A stretch of DNA of 49,280 nucleotides. Origin: Phycisphaerales bacterium. Its GTDB lineage: Bacteria > Planctomycetota > Phycisphaerae > Phycisphaerales > SM1A02. Shown here in pieces: positions 20,218 through 25,726 of the stretch (position 1 is the first letter of the stretch; each line of letters opens with the position of its first letter). The notes beneath the pieces were generated by a model. That model was not told the DNA's origin. It did not search any database and was given only the letters and a program-made list of their open reading frames with translations. Location of the stretch: assembly GCA_020345805.1 (NCBI GenBank), contig CP070772.1, forward strand, positions 1,745,773 to 1,795,052. Direction: 5' to 3'. The position numbers and the translations under genes are program-made.

Positions 20218-21474
20218 TTACCTCGGGTCTTGCGCGTGCTGACCCGGATTGCCCTTCACCTCCGCGATCCTCACCGCGCCGGCGGGCTCGCCCTCCGGAT
20301 CCGGGCGGGCGATGTGGACGGCCTTCTCCCCCAGCTTCGCCTCGCCTCGCCTGACCTTCGCCTGGAAGCTGCGACACTCGTCAAGCAGCCGATCGAGGAT
20401 CTCTTCTTCCGGGACGTTGGCGACGCGTTCGCCCTGAACGTAGACGATGCCGCGCCGATCGCCGGCGAAGACGGCCACATCCGCGCCCTCGGCCTCGCCC
20501 GGGCCGTTCACCACGCAGCCCATGACCGCCACCTTCATGGGCAGGTCGATTTCATCCTTCAGTTTGCTCCGCACCTCCTGGACCAACGTGAGCAGATCGA
20601 CCTGGATGCGCCCGCAGGTGGGACAGGCGATAAGCTCAGCGCCCAGGCGCTGGCGCAGCCCCAGGCAATAGAGCATTTCCAAAGCGTCTTCGACTTCAAG
20701 CACCGGATCCGAGGCGTAGCTGATGCGCACGGTGTCGCCGATGCCGCCCGCCAGCAACGTGCCCAGGGCCACCACGGAGCGGATGGTGCCCGTTTCCTTC
20801 GGACCGGCGTGCGTCACGCCCAGGTGCAGCGGGTAATCGAAGCGCTTGGAGATCTCGGTATAGACATCGATGGTCAAGGCCGGATCCATGGACTTGGCGC
20901 TGATGCACAGGTCGTGAAAGTCGCGGGCCTCGAAGATGTCCAGGTATTCTTCGAGCTTGGCGATCATCAGGGCCATGACCTGGCCGTGGCGGTGCTCGGA
21001 GAAGACTTTCACCAGTTCTTCCCTGCGCTTCCGCTTGTCCCTGCGCTCGACGATGGAGCCCTCGTTGACGCCGATGCGGATGGGGAGGGAGCGCTCCTTG
21101 CAGGCGTCGATGACGGCGTTGACCTGCCCGCGGTCGGAGATGTTGCCGGGGTTGAGCCGGATCTTGTGTACGCCGGCCTCCACCGCCTCCAGAGCCCTCT
21201 GGTAATGGAAGTGGACGTCGGCGACGATGGGCACGTGGGTCTGAGAGAGGACCTGAGGCAAGGCCTCGGTGTCTCGGCGCTGGGGCACCGCGACGCGGAC
21301 GATATCGGCCCCCGCGGCGGCGAGGCGGTTGATCTCCGCCACGCAGTCGTCGATGTCGCAGGTCCGCCCGGAGGTCATCGTCTGCACCGAGATCGGCGCC
21401 GAGGAGCCGATGGCAACGATGCCGCTCCGCTCATCGCCCACCAGAATCTGCCTGGTTTCTCGCCCGATCGGCAT
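20218..21474 (-). CDS. ispG: HMBDP synthase (GcpE)
   Basis: (E)-4-hydroxy-3-methylbut-2-enyl diphosphate synthase, the [4Fe-4S] enzyme of the non-mevalonate pathway that reduces and opens methylerythritol cyclodiphosphate. In 418 residues, the TIM-barrel half has VADVHFHYQRALEA, KIRLNPGNI and RIGVNEGS; the cluster half has ACPTCGR and GCVVNGPGEA. About 40 residues extend the C-terminus beyond the usual end. The ATG at 21474 is chosen by family start; the frame runs on upstream without homology. A -10-like TACAAT (21489..21484) lies so close that the mRNA would be nearly leaderless. dxs and ispA are in a separate unit 7 kb away. Confidence 0.96.
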   Translation of the reverse strand: MPIGRETRQILVGDERSGIVAIGSSAPISVQTMTSGRTCDIDDCVAEINRLAAAGADIVRVAVPQRRDTEALPQVLSQTHVPIVADVHFHYQRALEAVEAGVHKIRLNPGNISDRGQVNAVIDACKERSLPIRIGVNEGSIVERRDKRKRREELVKVFSEHRHGQVMALMIAKLEEYLDIFEARDFHDLCISAKSMDPALTIDVYTEISKRFDYPLHLGVTHAGPKETGTIRSVVALGTLLAGGIGDTVRISYASDPVLEVEDALEMLYCLGLRQRLGAELIACPTCGRIQVDLLTLVQEVRSKLKDEIDLPMKVAVMGCVVNGPGEAEGADVAVFAGDRRGIVYVQGERVANVPEEEILDRLLDECRSFQAKVRRGEAKLGEKAVHIARPDPEGEPAGAVRIAEVKGNPGQHAQDPR

Positions 21475-21483
21475 TATTGGAAC

Positions 21484-21489
21484 ATTGTA
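21484..21489 (-). promoter_or_regulatory. Likely -10 element of ispG
   Basis: On the minus strand TACAAT matches the -10 consensus at five of six bases and ends 9 bases before the ispG ATG (21474), which implies a leader of only a few bases. No good -35 is visible 17 bases upstream, so the call rests on the -10 alone. Confidence 0.35.
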
Positions 21490-21706
21490 AGTGTGGTCGT
21501 GTCGCCCGGCCACGGCCCGGGGAGTTCGGTTTGCGGCATCTGTAGGAAACCTGCGGCCTGACCAAGCTCCGCCGTCTGTCGAAGCATGCGGGCGAGAACC
21601 GTCTGATTTCGGCCGTGGCACTTCACCATTCGAGACGTTGGGCCGATTCCATCGGTTGAGGTTGCGACGGTGACAAGCTGGATGAACGGGGGAGGAGGAT
21701 AACCGT

Positions 21707-22879
21707 TTGGCCGAATCGTTCACCGACTACCTGAAGCTGAACTCCTCCGAGCGCAATCGGCTTCTGGCGCGACTTGCCCGCGATCCCGCGCGAAAGTTGG
21801 GCAAGTGCAAGCGGAAGCACCGGAGGTACAGCTACCGCACTCTGGACGTGGCCATGAGCATCGTTCATCCGGGCGGCGGCCAAAGCCGGCTCCTGGTCAC
21901 TTCGCGCAACCTCTCCGCCGGCGGAATCGCCTTCCTGCACGGCGGGTATCTGCACGCCGGTTCGGAATGCACCCTGGCCCTCATGCGCCGCGACGGTACT
22001 CCGATATGCCTGGCGGGGACCGTTCGGCACTGCCGGCATCTGCAGGGGGCATGTCACGAAGTCGGCGTCCAGTTCTCCCACGAGATCGACCCGGAGGTCA
22101 TCCTGCTGCCGGAGGATCTCGACGACGCGGACGGGGGTCCGGAATGCGGTCGTTCCCTTCGAATCCCCTCGCTGCGCGGACGGGTGCTCATCGCGGACGA
22201 GAATGAGCCCGACCGTCGGTTGTTGTCGCACCAGTTGTCCGCGACCGGCCTGGAGGTCACGCCGATCGCCACCGCGGGAGCCACGCTTGATGCGGTGAAA
22301 AAAGGCAAGTTCGACGCGGTGATCTGCGGTCTGGATCTGTATCGGGCTCATGGGATTCACGCGGTGAAATCCCTGCGAGAGATCGGATATCGACAGCCGG
22401 TGCTGGTGCTTACCGCCGAGATTGACAATCGGGCCCTGGCTGCGGTGACGGAGGCGGGCGCGACGGAGGTGGCGGGAAAGCCCTACGACCCCTATTACCT
22501 CATGTACCTGCTGGCCGAAGCCCTGAACCAGCCGGTGCCGGAGGGAACGGTTGTCAGTCGCTTCGACGGCGAACCGGGCATCGGCGATCTGCTGGAGGAT
22601 TTCGTGAAGGAGGCGAGGGATCTCGCCGGCCGCCTCGCCGCAGCGCTGGAAGAAACGGACCTCGCCGGAGCGCGCGATTTGTGTGTCCGCATGGCCGGTT
22701 CGGGCGCGAATCACGGCTTCGACCAGCTCAGCATGGCGGCCCGCGATGCACTCCACAACCTTGACGCGGCCGGGAGCCTCGATGCGGCGATCGGGCCGCT
22801 GGGCAGGCTGATCTCGATGTGCCAGCGTCTGGACCGGCACGACTCTGACCCGACCCCGTCCCCCGGGCTCGGGAGCTAG
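21707..22879 (+). CDS. PilZ / pseudo-receiver / pseudo-Hpt protein (copy 1)
   Basis: A 390-residue three-domain protein. The PilZ domain (about 36-130) keeps both c-di-GMP motifs: R40-x3-R44 and NLSAGG (N68, S70, G73). The receiver-like domain (about 157-275) keeps Asp164, Thr236 and Lys258, but the phosphoacceptor position is Gly208. The C-terminal Hpt-like domain (about 293-375) has Val327 where the phosphorylated His should be. So the chain looks like a c-di-GMP sensor built on a phosphorelay frame that can no longer carry phosphate. The TTG start at 21707 is supported by GGAGG 8 bases upstream. It precedes a paralogue at 23048 and an EAL-HDOD gene, and diverges from ispG. Output unknown. 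Confidence 0.8.
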   Translation: MAESFTDYLKLNSSERNRLLARLARDPARKLGKCKRKHRRYSYRTLDVAMSIVHPGGGQSRLLVTSRNLSAGGIAFLHGGYLHAGSECTLALMRRDGTPICLAGTVRHCRHLQGACHEVGVQFSHEIDPEVILLPEDLDDADGGPECGRSLRIPSLRGRVLIADENEPDRRLLSHQLSATGLEVTPIATAGATLDAVKKGKFDAVICGLDLYRAHGIHAVKSLREIGYRQPVLVLTAEIDNRALAAVTEAGATEVAGKPYDPYYLMYLLAEALNQPVPEGTVVSRFDGEPGIGDLLEDFVKEARDLAGRLAAALEETDLAGARDLCVRMAGSGANHGFDQLSMAARDALHNLDAAGSLDAAIGPLGRLISMCQRLDRHDSDPTPSPGLGS

Positions 22880-23047
22880 AAGAGGCCGGGCCGGGGGAGC
22901 GGACCCGCCGGCGACCTCTGCCGGCCGCCGGCGTGCCCGGACGCGTGTCGGGTCCGATTGGGCAACCGGCCGTAAAGCCGGTCTTGCGGCTGGTCGATAC
23001 GCCACAGTCGGACGTGTATAGATGCCTGCGGACCCGGGAGCGCCCCA

Positions 23048-24214
23048 GTGGACACCGGTGGAGACACCTCACCCATCAACGCGCTTCGCCTGAGTGACTC
23101 GGAGCGCCGGAAGCTGCTCGAAAGGCTGGATCGTCAGCGCACCGCCTTCCGGGGGCGGGAATCCCGTCTCGAGGACCGGCTGCCGTACAAGACAGCCGCA
23201 GACGTGATTGTCACTCTCCGCCATCCCGGCGGTTCGGTTGTCGACTATCTGGTGCGCCCCCGGAATCTCAGCCCTCAGGGCATAGGTTTTCTGCACGGCA
23301 ACTTCGTGCACCCGGGCAGTGAATGCCAGGTCCACCTGGTTAATCTGGACCGGCAACCTGAACTCGTCGAAGGCACCGTGGTCCGTTGCCGCCACGTCGA
23401 GGGGCTGGTCCACGAGGTAGGCGTCCGGTTCGAACAGCCGATTGCGCTGGAGAAGTTCGTCCCGGAACACCGGCAGTCGGCGAACCTGCCGGAGCCCAAC
23501 ATCGAACTGCCCAGGTTGTCCGGCAGGGTCGTCTTTGTGGAGAACTCGGACACCGACCGGGAGCTGCTTGGCTCCCATCTGGGCAAGCTGGGCGTCGAAA
23601 TGGTCTCGATCGCCAGCCCGCTGGAGGCGCTGGCTTTGCTCGAACGAGAGAAGTTCGAGCTGATCATAACGGGGGCTTCGCTGCCGGGGCTCACCGGGCC
23701 GGAGCTGGCCGAAGCGCTGAGGGCCGACGGCCACGAGGAGCCCATTCTCGCCCTGGCCGACGATGACAACGCCGAGACTCGCGACGAGGCGCTGGCTTGC
23801 GGGTGCACGGCCGTCCATGCCAAGCCCTTCACTCTGGAGCAGCTGGCCCGGTGGCTGAGCGAGTACTTGCCGCGAGCCGCGGACTCCGGCCCGGACCGCG
23901 AGTGCCTGAAGAGCACCGAATGGGCCAAGCCGCACATGCGACCGCTGATCCTCGGGTTTCTCGAGAAGATGGAGGTCCAGGTGGGGCAACTGGCCGGTCT
24001 TCTGGCCGCCGATGCGGATCGCCGGGCCATCGAGAAGCTGAGTGTGGAACTCAAAGGGGCCGCGGGCGGACATGGCTATCCGGACGTAAGCCGGACCGCG
24101 GCGGAACTGCACACGCTGTCGGCCCGGGGGGCATCACCGGAGGAGCTGGCGGCGAAGTGTCGCGATCTGGAGGAGCTCTGCCGGCGGGCCGGTCAGATCC
24201 GCCACGAGACGTGA
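23048..24214 (+). CDS. PilZ / pseudo-receiver / pseudo-Hpt protein (copy 2)
   Basis: A 388-residue paralogue of the protein at 21707 with the same order. The PilZ domain (about 38-132) has R40-x3-R44 and NLSPQG (N73, S75, G78). In the receiver-like domain (about 159-275) the acidic pocket is worn (VENSD where DD is usual), the phosphoacceptor is Gly209 and the Thr is Ala237, while Lys259 stays. The Hpt-like domain (about 295-375) keeps LKGAAGGHGYPDV but has Val333 instead of His. Both copies lost the same two residues to the same replacements, Gly and Val. The start is a GTG at 23048 with only a weak ribosome site; 168 bases separate it from copy 1. Confidence 0.8.
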   Translation: MDTGGDTSPINALRLSDSERRKLLERLDRQRTAFRGRESRLEDRLPYKTAADVIVTLRHPGGSVVDYLVRPRNLSPQGIGFLHGNFVHPGSECQVHLVNLDRQPELVEGTVVRCRHVEGLVHEVGVRFEQPIALEKFVPEHRQSANLPEPNIELPRLSGRVVFVENSDTDRELLGSHLGKLGVEMVSIASPLEALALLEREKFELIITGASLPGLTGPELAEALRADGHEEPILALADDDNAETRDEALACGCTAVHAKPFTLEQLARWLSEYLPRAADSGPDRECLKSTEWAKPHMRPLILGFLEKMEVQVGQLAGLLAADADRRAIEKLSVELKGAAGGHGYPDVSRTAAELHTLSARGASPEELAAKCRDLEELCRRAGQIRHET

Positions 24215-24313
24215 CAGATCCAATAACCGCTACAGCCCAGACTTCGACCGCCATGGCCTCCGGCTGTCCGCTCGCCGGAGTGGGCGGGACGGTGTCCATC
24301 GCCGAAGAATCTA

Positions 24314-24336
24314 GATCAACGTTGCGACCGTTGATC
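24314..24336. promoter_or_regulatory. 8-7-8 inverted repeat before the EAL-HDOD gene
   Basis: Perfect arms GATCAACG (24314-24321) and CGTTGATC (24329-24336), typical of a dimeric repressor or activator site. Just downstream TCATTCCG occurs twice as a direct repeat (24339-24346 and 24352-24359). Both lie in the 200-base gap before the gene at 24416, so they may regulate it. No clear promoter hexamers are seen. Confidence 0.45.
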
Positions 24337-24415
24337 AGTCATTCCGGGGTCTCATTCCGAACGGTACCGGCCTCCAGGTCTGCGGCCGGGTGCCGACACA
24401 CCAGGGAATGCCCGA

Positions 24416-25726
24416 ATGACCATCGCCAGGCGGCCGGAGAATCCGGAACCGGACCTTGATCTTCAATCCCGTGCTGTCGCCGGAGGGATGACCGCCGATG
24501 ACGGGCTGCCCGAGCGGACCGTTTTCGTCGCCCGCCAGCCGATTCTCGATCGCCATCTGGAGGTGTTCGGATACGAACTTCTGTTCAGGTCCGGGCGGCA
24601 GAACTTCCATTGTTTCCACGACGGGGACCAGGCGACCCGCCTGACCGTCAGCAATGCCCTCAACGTCATGGGGCTGAATGATCTGGTCTCCGGCAAGAAG
24701 GCATTCGTCAACATCACCCGCAATCTGCTTCTGCAGGAGTTCCACGCCGTGCTGCCGCTGAAACAGGGGGTGGTGGAATTGCTGGAGACGGTGGAGCCGG
24801 ACGAAGAGGTGATCGCGGCCTGCCGGGCGATGAAAGAGGAAGGCTACCTGCTGGCCCTTGACGATTTCGTGTTCAGCCCGCGATACCAACCATTGCTGGA
24901 CATCGCCGACATCGTGAAGGTCGACTTCCTGGCCACAGACCGCCGGGAGCGCCGCGCGCTTATCGAAAACTCGAGGCGCCCCGGCCTGGTGTTCCTGGCG
25001 GAGAAAGTCGAGGGGCACCAAGAGTTCGAGGAAGGCCTCGCCCTGGGTTATGCCCTCTTTCAGGGGTACTTCTTCAGCAAGCCGAAAATCGTCGAGAGCC
25101 GCGACTTCGTCGGGGCCAAGCACAAGTACATGCTGTTCCTTCAGGAAGTTCACTCACCGGAACTCGATTTCGATCGTCTGGAGAAGGTCGTCAAGTCCGA
25201 CGCATCGTTGTCCGTAAAGCTCCTGCGCTATCTGAACTCCGCCGGTATGGGCGTCCGCGAGAGAATCACCTCGATCAAGCAGGCCCTGATCCTGCTGGGC
25301 GAGAAGCCCCTGCGCAAATGGGCCTCGCTGGTGGCCCTCACCTGCATCGGGGAGGACAAACCGAGCGAGCTGATCCGGCTGAGCCTCGCCCGCGCCCACT
25401 TCTGTGAATCGCTGTGCAGTGACCTGAAAATGACCGGCCGGGAACTGGACCTGTTCCTGCTCGGCCTCCTCTCGGCCCTGGATGCCATGCTGGACTGTTC
25501 ACCTGAAGATCTCGTGGAGCAACTGCCGCTTGCAACCGACGTCAAGACCACCCTCCTGGGCGGCTCCGGCACGCTGGGCAAGGTCTATATGCTGGTCCAG
25601 GCCTGCGAGCACGCCGACTGGAAGACCGCCTGCCTGCTCGGCCGCCTTCTAGAGATCGAGGTCGCGCGCATCAACGAGACCTACTCCCACTCGCTCCGCT
25701 GGGCCGACGAAGTGATGCGAATCTGA
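24416..25726 (+). CDS. EAL-HDOD signalling protein (YuxH/CdgJ type)
   Basis: A 436-residue protein joining a c-di-GMP phosphodiesterase-like EAL domain (about 28-235) to an HDOD domain (about 240-430). FVARQPILDRHLEVFGYELLFRS opens the family. The EAL motif reads ELL; VNIT, LLETVEP, LALDDF, VKVDF, EKVEG and QGYFFSKP follow, so several metal ligands survive, but family members are often inactive or only bind. The HDOD part (SLSVKLLRYLNSAG, SIKQALILLGEKPLRKW) is an adaptor domain without the HD catalytic pair. It closes a cluster with two PilZ proteins, and together they are probably a c-di-GMP-linked control module, perhaps for motility, pili or attachment. Confidence 0.88.
   Translation: MTIARRPENPEPDLDLQSRAVAGGMTADDGLPERTVFVARQPILDRHLEVFGYELLFRSGRQNFHCFHDGDQATRLTVSNALNVMGLNDLVSGKKAFVNITRNLLLQEFHAVLPLKQGVVELLETVEPDEEVIAACRAMKEEGYLLALDDFVFSPRYQPLLDIADIVKVDFLATDRRERRALIENSRRPGLVFLAEKVEGHQEFEEGLALGYALFQGYFFSKPKIVESRDFVGAKHKYMLFLQEVHSPELDFDRLEKVVKSDASLSVKLLRYLNSAGMGVRERITSIKQALILLGEKPLRKWASLVALTCIGEDKPSELIRLSLARAHFCESLCSDLKMTGRELDLFLLGLLSALDAMLDCSPEDLVEQLPLATDVKTTLLGGSGTLGKVYMLVQACEHADWKTACLLGRLLEIEVARINETYSHSLRWADEVMRI

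Follow-up and report, generated by a model that had tools for sequence, protein, structure and literature searches.

What can a protein do that couples a predicted sensor of cyclic di-GMP (c-di-GMP) to a receiver and a phosphotransfer domain, when neither of the latter retains the residue that carries the phosphate? The question is raised by two neighbouring genes in a 49,280-nucleotide stretch of the genome of a Phycisphaerales bacterium (contig CP070772.1; the whole stretch is called the window here). Protein 1 (21707..22879, 390 amino acids, TTG start in agreement with the starts of its orthologs) and protein 2 (23048..24214, 388 amino acids, GTG start) are both encoded on the + strand. According to open reading frame (ORF) calls and Pfam, each combines a PilZ domain, a receiver domain (REC) and a domain resembling histidine phosphotransfer (Hpt) proteins in one chain. 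An earlier note, made from the sequence alone, had read them as twin proteins of a c-di-GMP-sensing system in which receiver and Hpt act by docking without phosphate transfer. Of this proposal the loss of the phosphosites and the predicted folds hold up, and a conserved docking face agrees with it, while c-di-GMP binding and docking are what we infer. We give an even chance to the reading that both proteins are c-di-GMP-gated docking adaptors, or decoys, for phosphorelay proteins and pass no phosphate themselves.

In protein 1 all three domains exceed the Pfam cut-off (Response_reg 51.4 bits, PilZ 37.5, Hpt 26.3). In protein 2 Response_reg (49.8) and PilZ (32.9) do so, and the Hpt, with 21.8 bits alone, falls under the cut-off of 24.6; it reaches 24.2 bits in the genome scan and 28.1 including its neighbours in the frame. 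Both PilZ domains (residues 34-130, 21806..22096, in protein 1; residues 40-132, 23165..23443, in protein 2; these and the following features are on the + strand) carry the two motifs that mark a PilZ receptor, RxxxR (residues 36-40 and 40-44) and [D/N]xSxxG, here NxSxxG (68-73 and 73-78). The receivers comprise residues 157-275 (22175..22531) and 158-276 (23519..23875), and at the end of beta3 they have Gly208 (codon 22328..22330) and Gly209 (23672-23674) in the position of the phosphoacceptor Asp. The Hpt-like domains (residues 293-374, 22583..22828, and residues 295-387, 23930..24208, the latter with its LKG core present) are each predicted to form four helices and have Val327 (22685-22687) and Val333 (24044-24046) in the position of the phospho-His. 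The motifs and substitutions are those the earlier note had reported; the two domains are called pseudo-receiver and pseudo-Hpt below.

Structure prediction bears out the expectation that the folds are kept. AlphaFold2 (AF2) models, computed from 31 (protein 1) and 30 (protein 2) sequences and with a mean predicted local distance difference test (pLDDT) score of 81.3 and 87.0, respectively, show in both proteins the strands of a PilZ barrel, a five-strand/five-helix receiver of the (beta-alpha)5 type and a C-terminal four-helix bundle. Gly208/Gly209 ends beta3, and Val327/Val333 lies within the second of the four C-terminal helices. The 50 matches listed in fold searches are receivers, response regulators and complexes thereof, with no solved Hpt structure among the matches listed; with a viral library, receivers and histidine kinases make up most of the strong matches. 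Single-sequence searches of the PDB with the Hpt and PilZ pieces gave nothing significant. We note that a Pfam PilZ search of the whole genome missed both window PilZ domains, though they are above the cut-off by hmmscan; since the two are absent from its list, the genome-wide search overlooks members.

The twin proteins of the earlier note are not recent paralogues. They share 34% identity, and each has orthologs on other contigs with 52-74% identity. A tree that unites both ortholog groups (20 rows) in one clade, as expected from a recent tandem duplication, is 179 log units worse, with a p-value in the approximately unbiased (AU) test of 8e-38 for groups that were picked after the tree was seen. 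By sequence comparison, proteins 1 and 2 are members of two old subfamilies, each with its own orthologs, and the receiver Asp was most simply lost separately in the two. A database ortholog of protein 1 (P0009) and one of protein 2 (P0034) both come from 5710-base contigs, a hint that the two genes may be neighbours in other genomes as well. Tandem arrangements of two or three family genes are seen in several genomes (three in a row in L069; L071, L089 and L104).

The two substitutions differ strongly in their distribution across the family. Database searches yielded 25 matches for protein 1 and 19 for protein 2, the window proteins counted in, and of 121 genomes searched, 43 carry the family at E <= 1e-60, the window's own among them. 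A cut-off of E <= 1e-40 also admits kinase tails and gives matches in 136 of 298 genomes from the class and in 33 of 392 from the phylum; in the 10 matching genomes outside the class, with four candidates scored per genome, the matches span the REC-Hpt half only, in frames of 646-1343 amino acids. Order-level loci (46) and the class search (66) together provide 112 distinct full-length genomic chains, which with the two window proteins make up a 114-row genome-set alignment. The receiver Asp is present in 84 of the 112 chains. The Hpt His is present in 2, both from genus g60, and absent in 110, its site being Arg in 47 chains and Gln in 14; both residues are missing in 28 chains. An 84-row alignment (31 rows from the database and the window plus 53 from genomes) likewise has His in 2 rows, and its acceptor column reads Asp 34, Gly 25, Glu 11, Asn 5, Ala 4, Ser 1, Lys 1 and gap 3. 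Gly and Val, whose fixation the earlier note had asked about, are not fixed, but the absence of His is nearly general; and relatives that keep Asp and His, which would have made the window proteins look like mere decayed copies, exist in number for the Asp but hardly for the His. Judged by these residues, the pseudo-Hpt is the rule among PilZ-REC-Hpt chains and the dead receiver a repeated step, so that the double-dead form derives from an older family of PilZ-REC-pseudo-Hpt chains and is not a system of its own. Both PilZ motifs are complete in 90 of the 114 genome-set rows and in all 30 database-set rows that cover this part (28 database and 2 window proteins).

The two g60 chains (L083:8362-9609 and L084:7992-9215) have the canonical Hpt His as well as the receiver Asp and are nested among His-less relatives; they may be an active form that was either regained or is the only one to survive. 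In Pfam their PilZ part has no match at E 0.1, yet it aligns with both motifs. A relocation of the Hpt His to H336 ('NHGF') was considered and rejected, as this position is His in 9/10 members of the protein 1 group and Tyr in 8/9 members of the protein 2 group, with no shared replacement.

The history of the losses was followed on trees. A 76-row tree requires no fewer than 13 switches between Asp and non-Asp, and 5 that involve Gly, and the minimum number of His changes on the 114-row tree is 1. PilZ chains aside, the sequences that the searches showed to be closest to the REC-Hpt half are the tails of hybrid histidine kinases from the same phylum. They have kinase domains where the window chains have PilZ, and the 12 examined (9 HisKA-HATPase-REC-Hpt and 3 HATPase-REC-Hpt, domains checked) retain Asp in 12/12 and His in 11/12. 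Adding them, with REC-Hpt columns only, splits the PilZ chains into a set of 51, mostly with Arg, and a set of 61 in which the residue varies; three of the kinase-type chains cluster with the latter set (Shimodaira-Hasegawa-like approximate likelihood-ratio test, SH-aLRT, 96). A single early loss of the His is not established by these trees; given this grouping, the loss of the His and the fusion to PilZ may each have happened twice.

Conservation within the ortholog groups (n=10 for protein 1, n=9 for protein 2) speaks to what remains of the two domains. The receiver Lys-Pro pair (K258-P259 in protein 1 numbering), of which the Lys had already been pointed out as retained, is invariant in 10/10 and 9/9 orthologs; D164, T236, A237 and E238 are likewise invariant in 10/10 of the protein 1 group, and the Hpt LKG core is found in 9/9 of the protein 2 group. 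Mean pairwise identities of PilZ, REC and Hpt are 0.71/0.62/0.58 in the protein 1 group and 0.74/0.61/0.60 in the protein 2 group, compared with 0.65/0.59/0.49 in four relatives, three of which keep the Asp. Helices alpha1 and alpha5 of a receiver form the face that meets the helices of Hpt and kinase proteins. Their conservation in the protein 1 and protein 2 groups, respectively (alpha1 0.79 and 0.76; beta5-alpha5 0.81 and 0.78), is higher than that of alpha2-alpha4 (0.60-0.74), in a comparison that was made without a significance test and on stretches that include the active-site loops D164 and K258-P259; the excess is absent in the 84 Asp-keeping chains. With K258, the alpha1/alpha5 face and the Hpt core conserved in both subfamilies, the proteins do not have the look of decay as far as alignments can tell, and double-dead domains with a conserved docking face fit docking without transfer.

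According to this model, c-di-GMP would bind to PilZ and alter the ability of pseudo-receiver and pseudo-Hpt to dock, the former with its alpha1/alpha5 face and the latter with helices A-B, on genuine Hpt, kinase or receiver proteins. The genome of the window (one contig, stated completeness 79.88) holds 8 GGDEF, 8 HDOD and 4 Hpt places, the last being the two window pseudo-Hpts, one Hpt within a hybrid kinase and one that stands alone. The stand-alone Hpt is canonical, keeps its His (LAHQLKG) and is located 58 bases upstream of a gene for a REC-GGDEF diguanylate cyclase (C1:2445321-2446659 for the pair, corresponding to L107:5322-6660). Such a pair is found in 23 of the best 30 loci, the own one counted in, from 78 genomes with an Hpt match, and the window pseudo-Hpts match the stand-alone Hpt with 30% and 32% identity (E-values 9e-8 and 9e-9 in a search against three proteins). 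It is our favoured candidate for the target, and also the weakest step of the model; with this target, c-di-GMP signalling would become a closed feedback loop. A further-reaching version, in which PilZ-receiver-pseudo-Hpt chains are switches throughout the class, c-di-GMP makes the dead phosphorelay copy a decoy that titrates the living Hpt-to-REC-GGDEF relay, and the window receivers were silenced twice separately, appears to us quite unlikely. If it were true, the messenger would limit its own synthesis with no phosphate passing through the sensor, and the window chains would be left under pure c-di-GMP control.

A number of observations weigh against docking adaptors. Co-occurrence with the candidate target is weak overall: a stand-alone Hpt match (E <= 1e-8) is found in 33 of the 43 family-bearing genomes versus 45 of the 78 without the family (p 0.047), counts that include some family-member and kinase matches and are hence biased towards association. 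Inside the window's own bacterial family (taken as genome handles up to G071) no association is seen, with an Hpt match in 7 of 14 holders versus about 30 of 58 others. When columns are read strictly, 24 of the 114 chains are short of one or both PilZ motifs, and the linkage to an EAL-HDOD gene, described below, is limited to 3 of the 45 order-level loci besides the window. Regarding the domains themselves, the predicted template modelling (pTM) scores of 0.58 (protein 1) and 0.41 (protein 2) do not fix the relative domain placement, the conserved Hpt Lys is gone from protein 1 (A330), and the acceptor site of the protein 2 group is Gly in 6/9 and Glu in 3/9, the latter of which may mimic the phosphate. 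The stretches compared for the face include the active-site loops, alpha1 of the protein 2 group (0.76) is barely above alpha3 (0.74), and the same face is also usable for dimerisation. Finally, a latch between an Arg at the Hpt site and the receiver Asp was tried and rejected: the acceptor site is Asp or Glu in 45 of the 47 Arg chains, but the latch found no support once the tree was allowed for by comparing independent pairs.

That both proteins are ordinary PilZ effectors, with receiver and Hpt as a structural or dimerising scaffold and an output target outside any phosphorelay (e.g. motility, pili or polysaccharide machinery), we consider somewhat unlikely. In each of the three groups compared, no domain has a higher identity than PilZ, and it can act without the receiver-Hpt frame, because PilZ-only paralogues exist in the own genome and a PilZ-only gene stands beside a full one in L065-L067. 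A scaffold is, however, at odds with a receiver face for Hpt and kinase contacts that surpasses the remaining helices in conservation in both groups, and with the retained Hpt core. Protein 1 might also be alive, its acceptor Asp having shifted by two residues (Gly208-x-Asp210, codon of Asp210 at 22334-22336, + strand), so that the pocket binds metal or takes phosphate. The six invariant residues of its receiver named above and the presence of Asp210 in 9/10 orthologs agree with this proposal, as does the fact that the Asp-keeping relatives L064-L067 read D-L-N or D-I-N instead. The position two past the acceptor is, however, known mainly as a tuning site. In the protein 2 group it reads S, S, R, T, E, W, W, D, W, without a common Asp, and in the sister Gly clade it is N, S or R. 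A shifted acceptor is very improbable in our view.

Even less probable is that both genes are relics decaying after the loss of a phosphorelay. The Asp retained in most relatives and the Hpt of protein 2, alone under the Pfam cut-off, would be expected of relics; full-length frames with orthologs on other contigs, and per-domain identities not below those of mostly Asp-keeping relatives, would not. The loss of the His cannot be recent either, since it extends over all but two of the 112 chains from across the class.

The reading as docking adaptors has counterparts among known proteins, the likeness lying in the proposed mode of action and being no proof of membership. Pseudo-receivers and isolated pseudo-Hpt proteins are already known. 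FimL of Pseudomonas aeruginosa, as described in the available part of PMC3019171, has homology to the N-terminus of ChpA and Hpt-like domains with Gln for the phospho-His, is tied to cyclic AMP and is thought to act via partner binding rather than canonical phosphotransfer. It resembles the window proteins in a His-less Hpt-like domain with a second-messenger link and differs in its Gln in place of Val; that part of the source mentions no PilZ or receiver. HapZ (PA2799) is a PilZ protein that, by the accessible text of PMC10333796, inhibits phosphotransfer from SagS to HptB, and more so with c-di-GMP. Control of a phosphorelay by a PilZ protein is also the working model proposed here; HapZ is a PilZ domain protein, whereas the window chains bear their own receiver and Hpt copies. 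The same text names ShkA and Cle as having pseudo-receivers that bind c-di-GMP. Like the window proteins, they put a receiver-type domain to use in c-di-GMP signalling apart from its usual role in phosphorylation, but there the pseudo-receiver itself binds the messenger, whereas the window chains have a separate two-motif PilZ. The part of PMC5085249 available also describes a diguanylate cyclase to which an Hpt pathway is connected. PilZ-REC-Hpt chains themselves were not found described, by title or start of abstract, among the part of the records listed in a literature search whose coverage mostly leaves out subscription journals. Their interest lies in the union, within a single chain, of a predicted c-di-GMP sensor with dead copies of the two partners of a phosphorelay, and in a missing His that extends to almost every chain sampled from an entire bacterial class. 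Should docking prove true, they would be a clear case of phosphorelay control by a second messenger through molecular mimicry, and chains without the His alone and chains without both residues offer a natural series for comparison.

With respect to gene neighbourhood, an EAL-HDOD gene (24416..25726, + strand, 436 amino acids, Pfam) follows protein 2, as the earlier note had it. Upstream, ispG is divergent (20218..21723, - strand, ORF end to end), its true start being probably near 21474. Promoter and terminator scans gave results at chance level. A strong ispG match shares the stretch in 15 of the 45 order-level loci fetched and is adjacent and divergent in 14. The loci with an EAL-HDOD gene directly downstream (L097, L098 and L099) all fall within protein 2's part of the tree. 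Signature residues of EAL, at motif positions which we take to be the relevant ones, are eroded in the EAL-HDOD genes L097:6961-8226 and L098:9659-11146, and in these two loci the partner seems, from its residues, to be dying as well. In L065, L066 and L067 a PilZ-only gene (frames of 162-189 amino acids, Pfam-checked in L066) adjoins the full-length one, and these stretches also hold ispG and topA.

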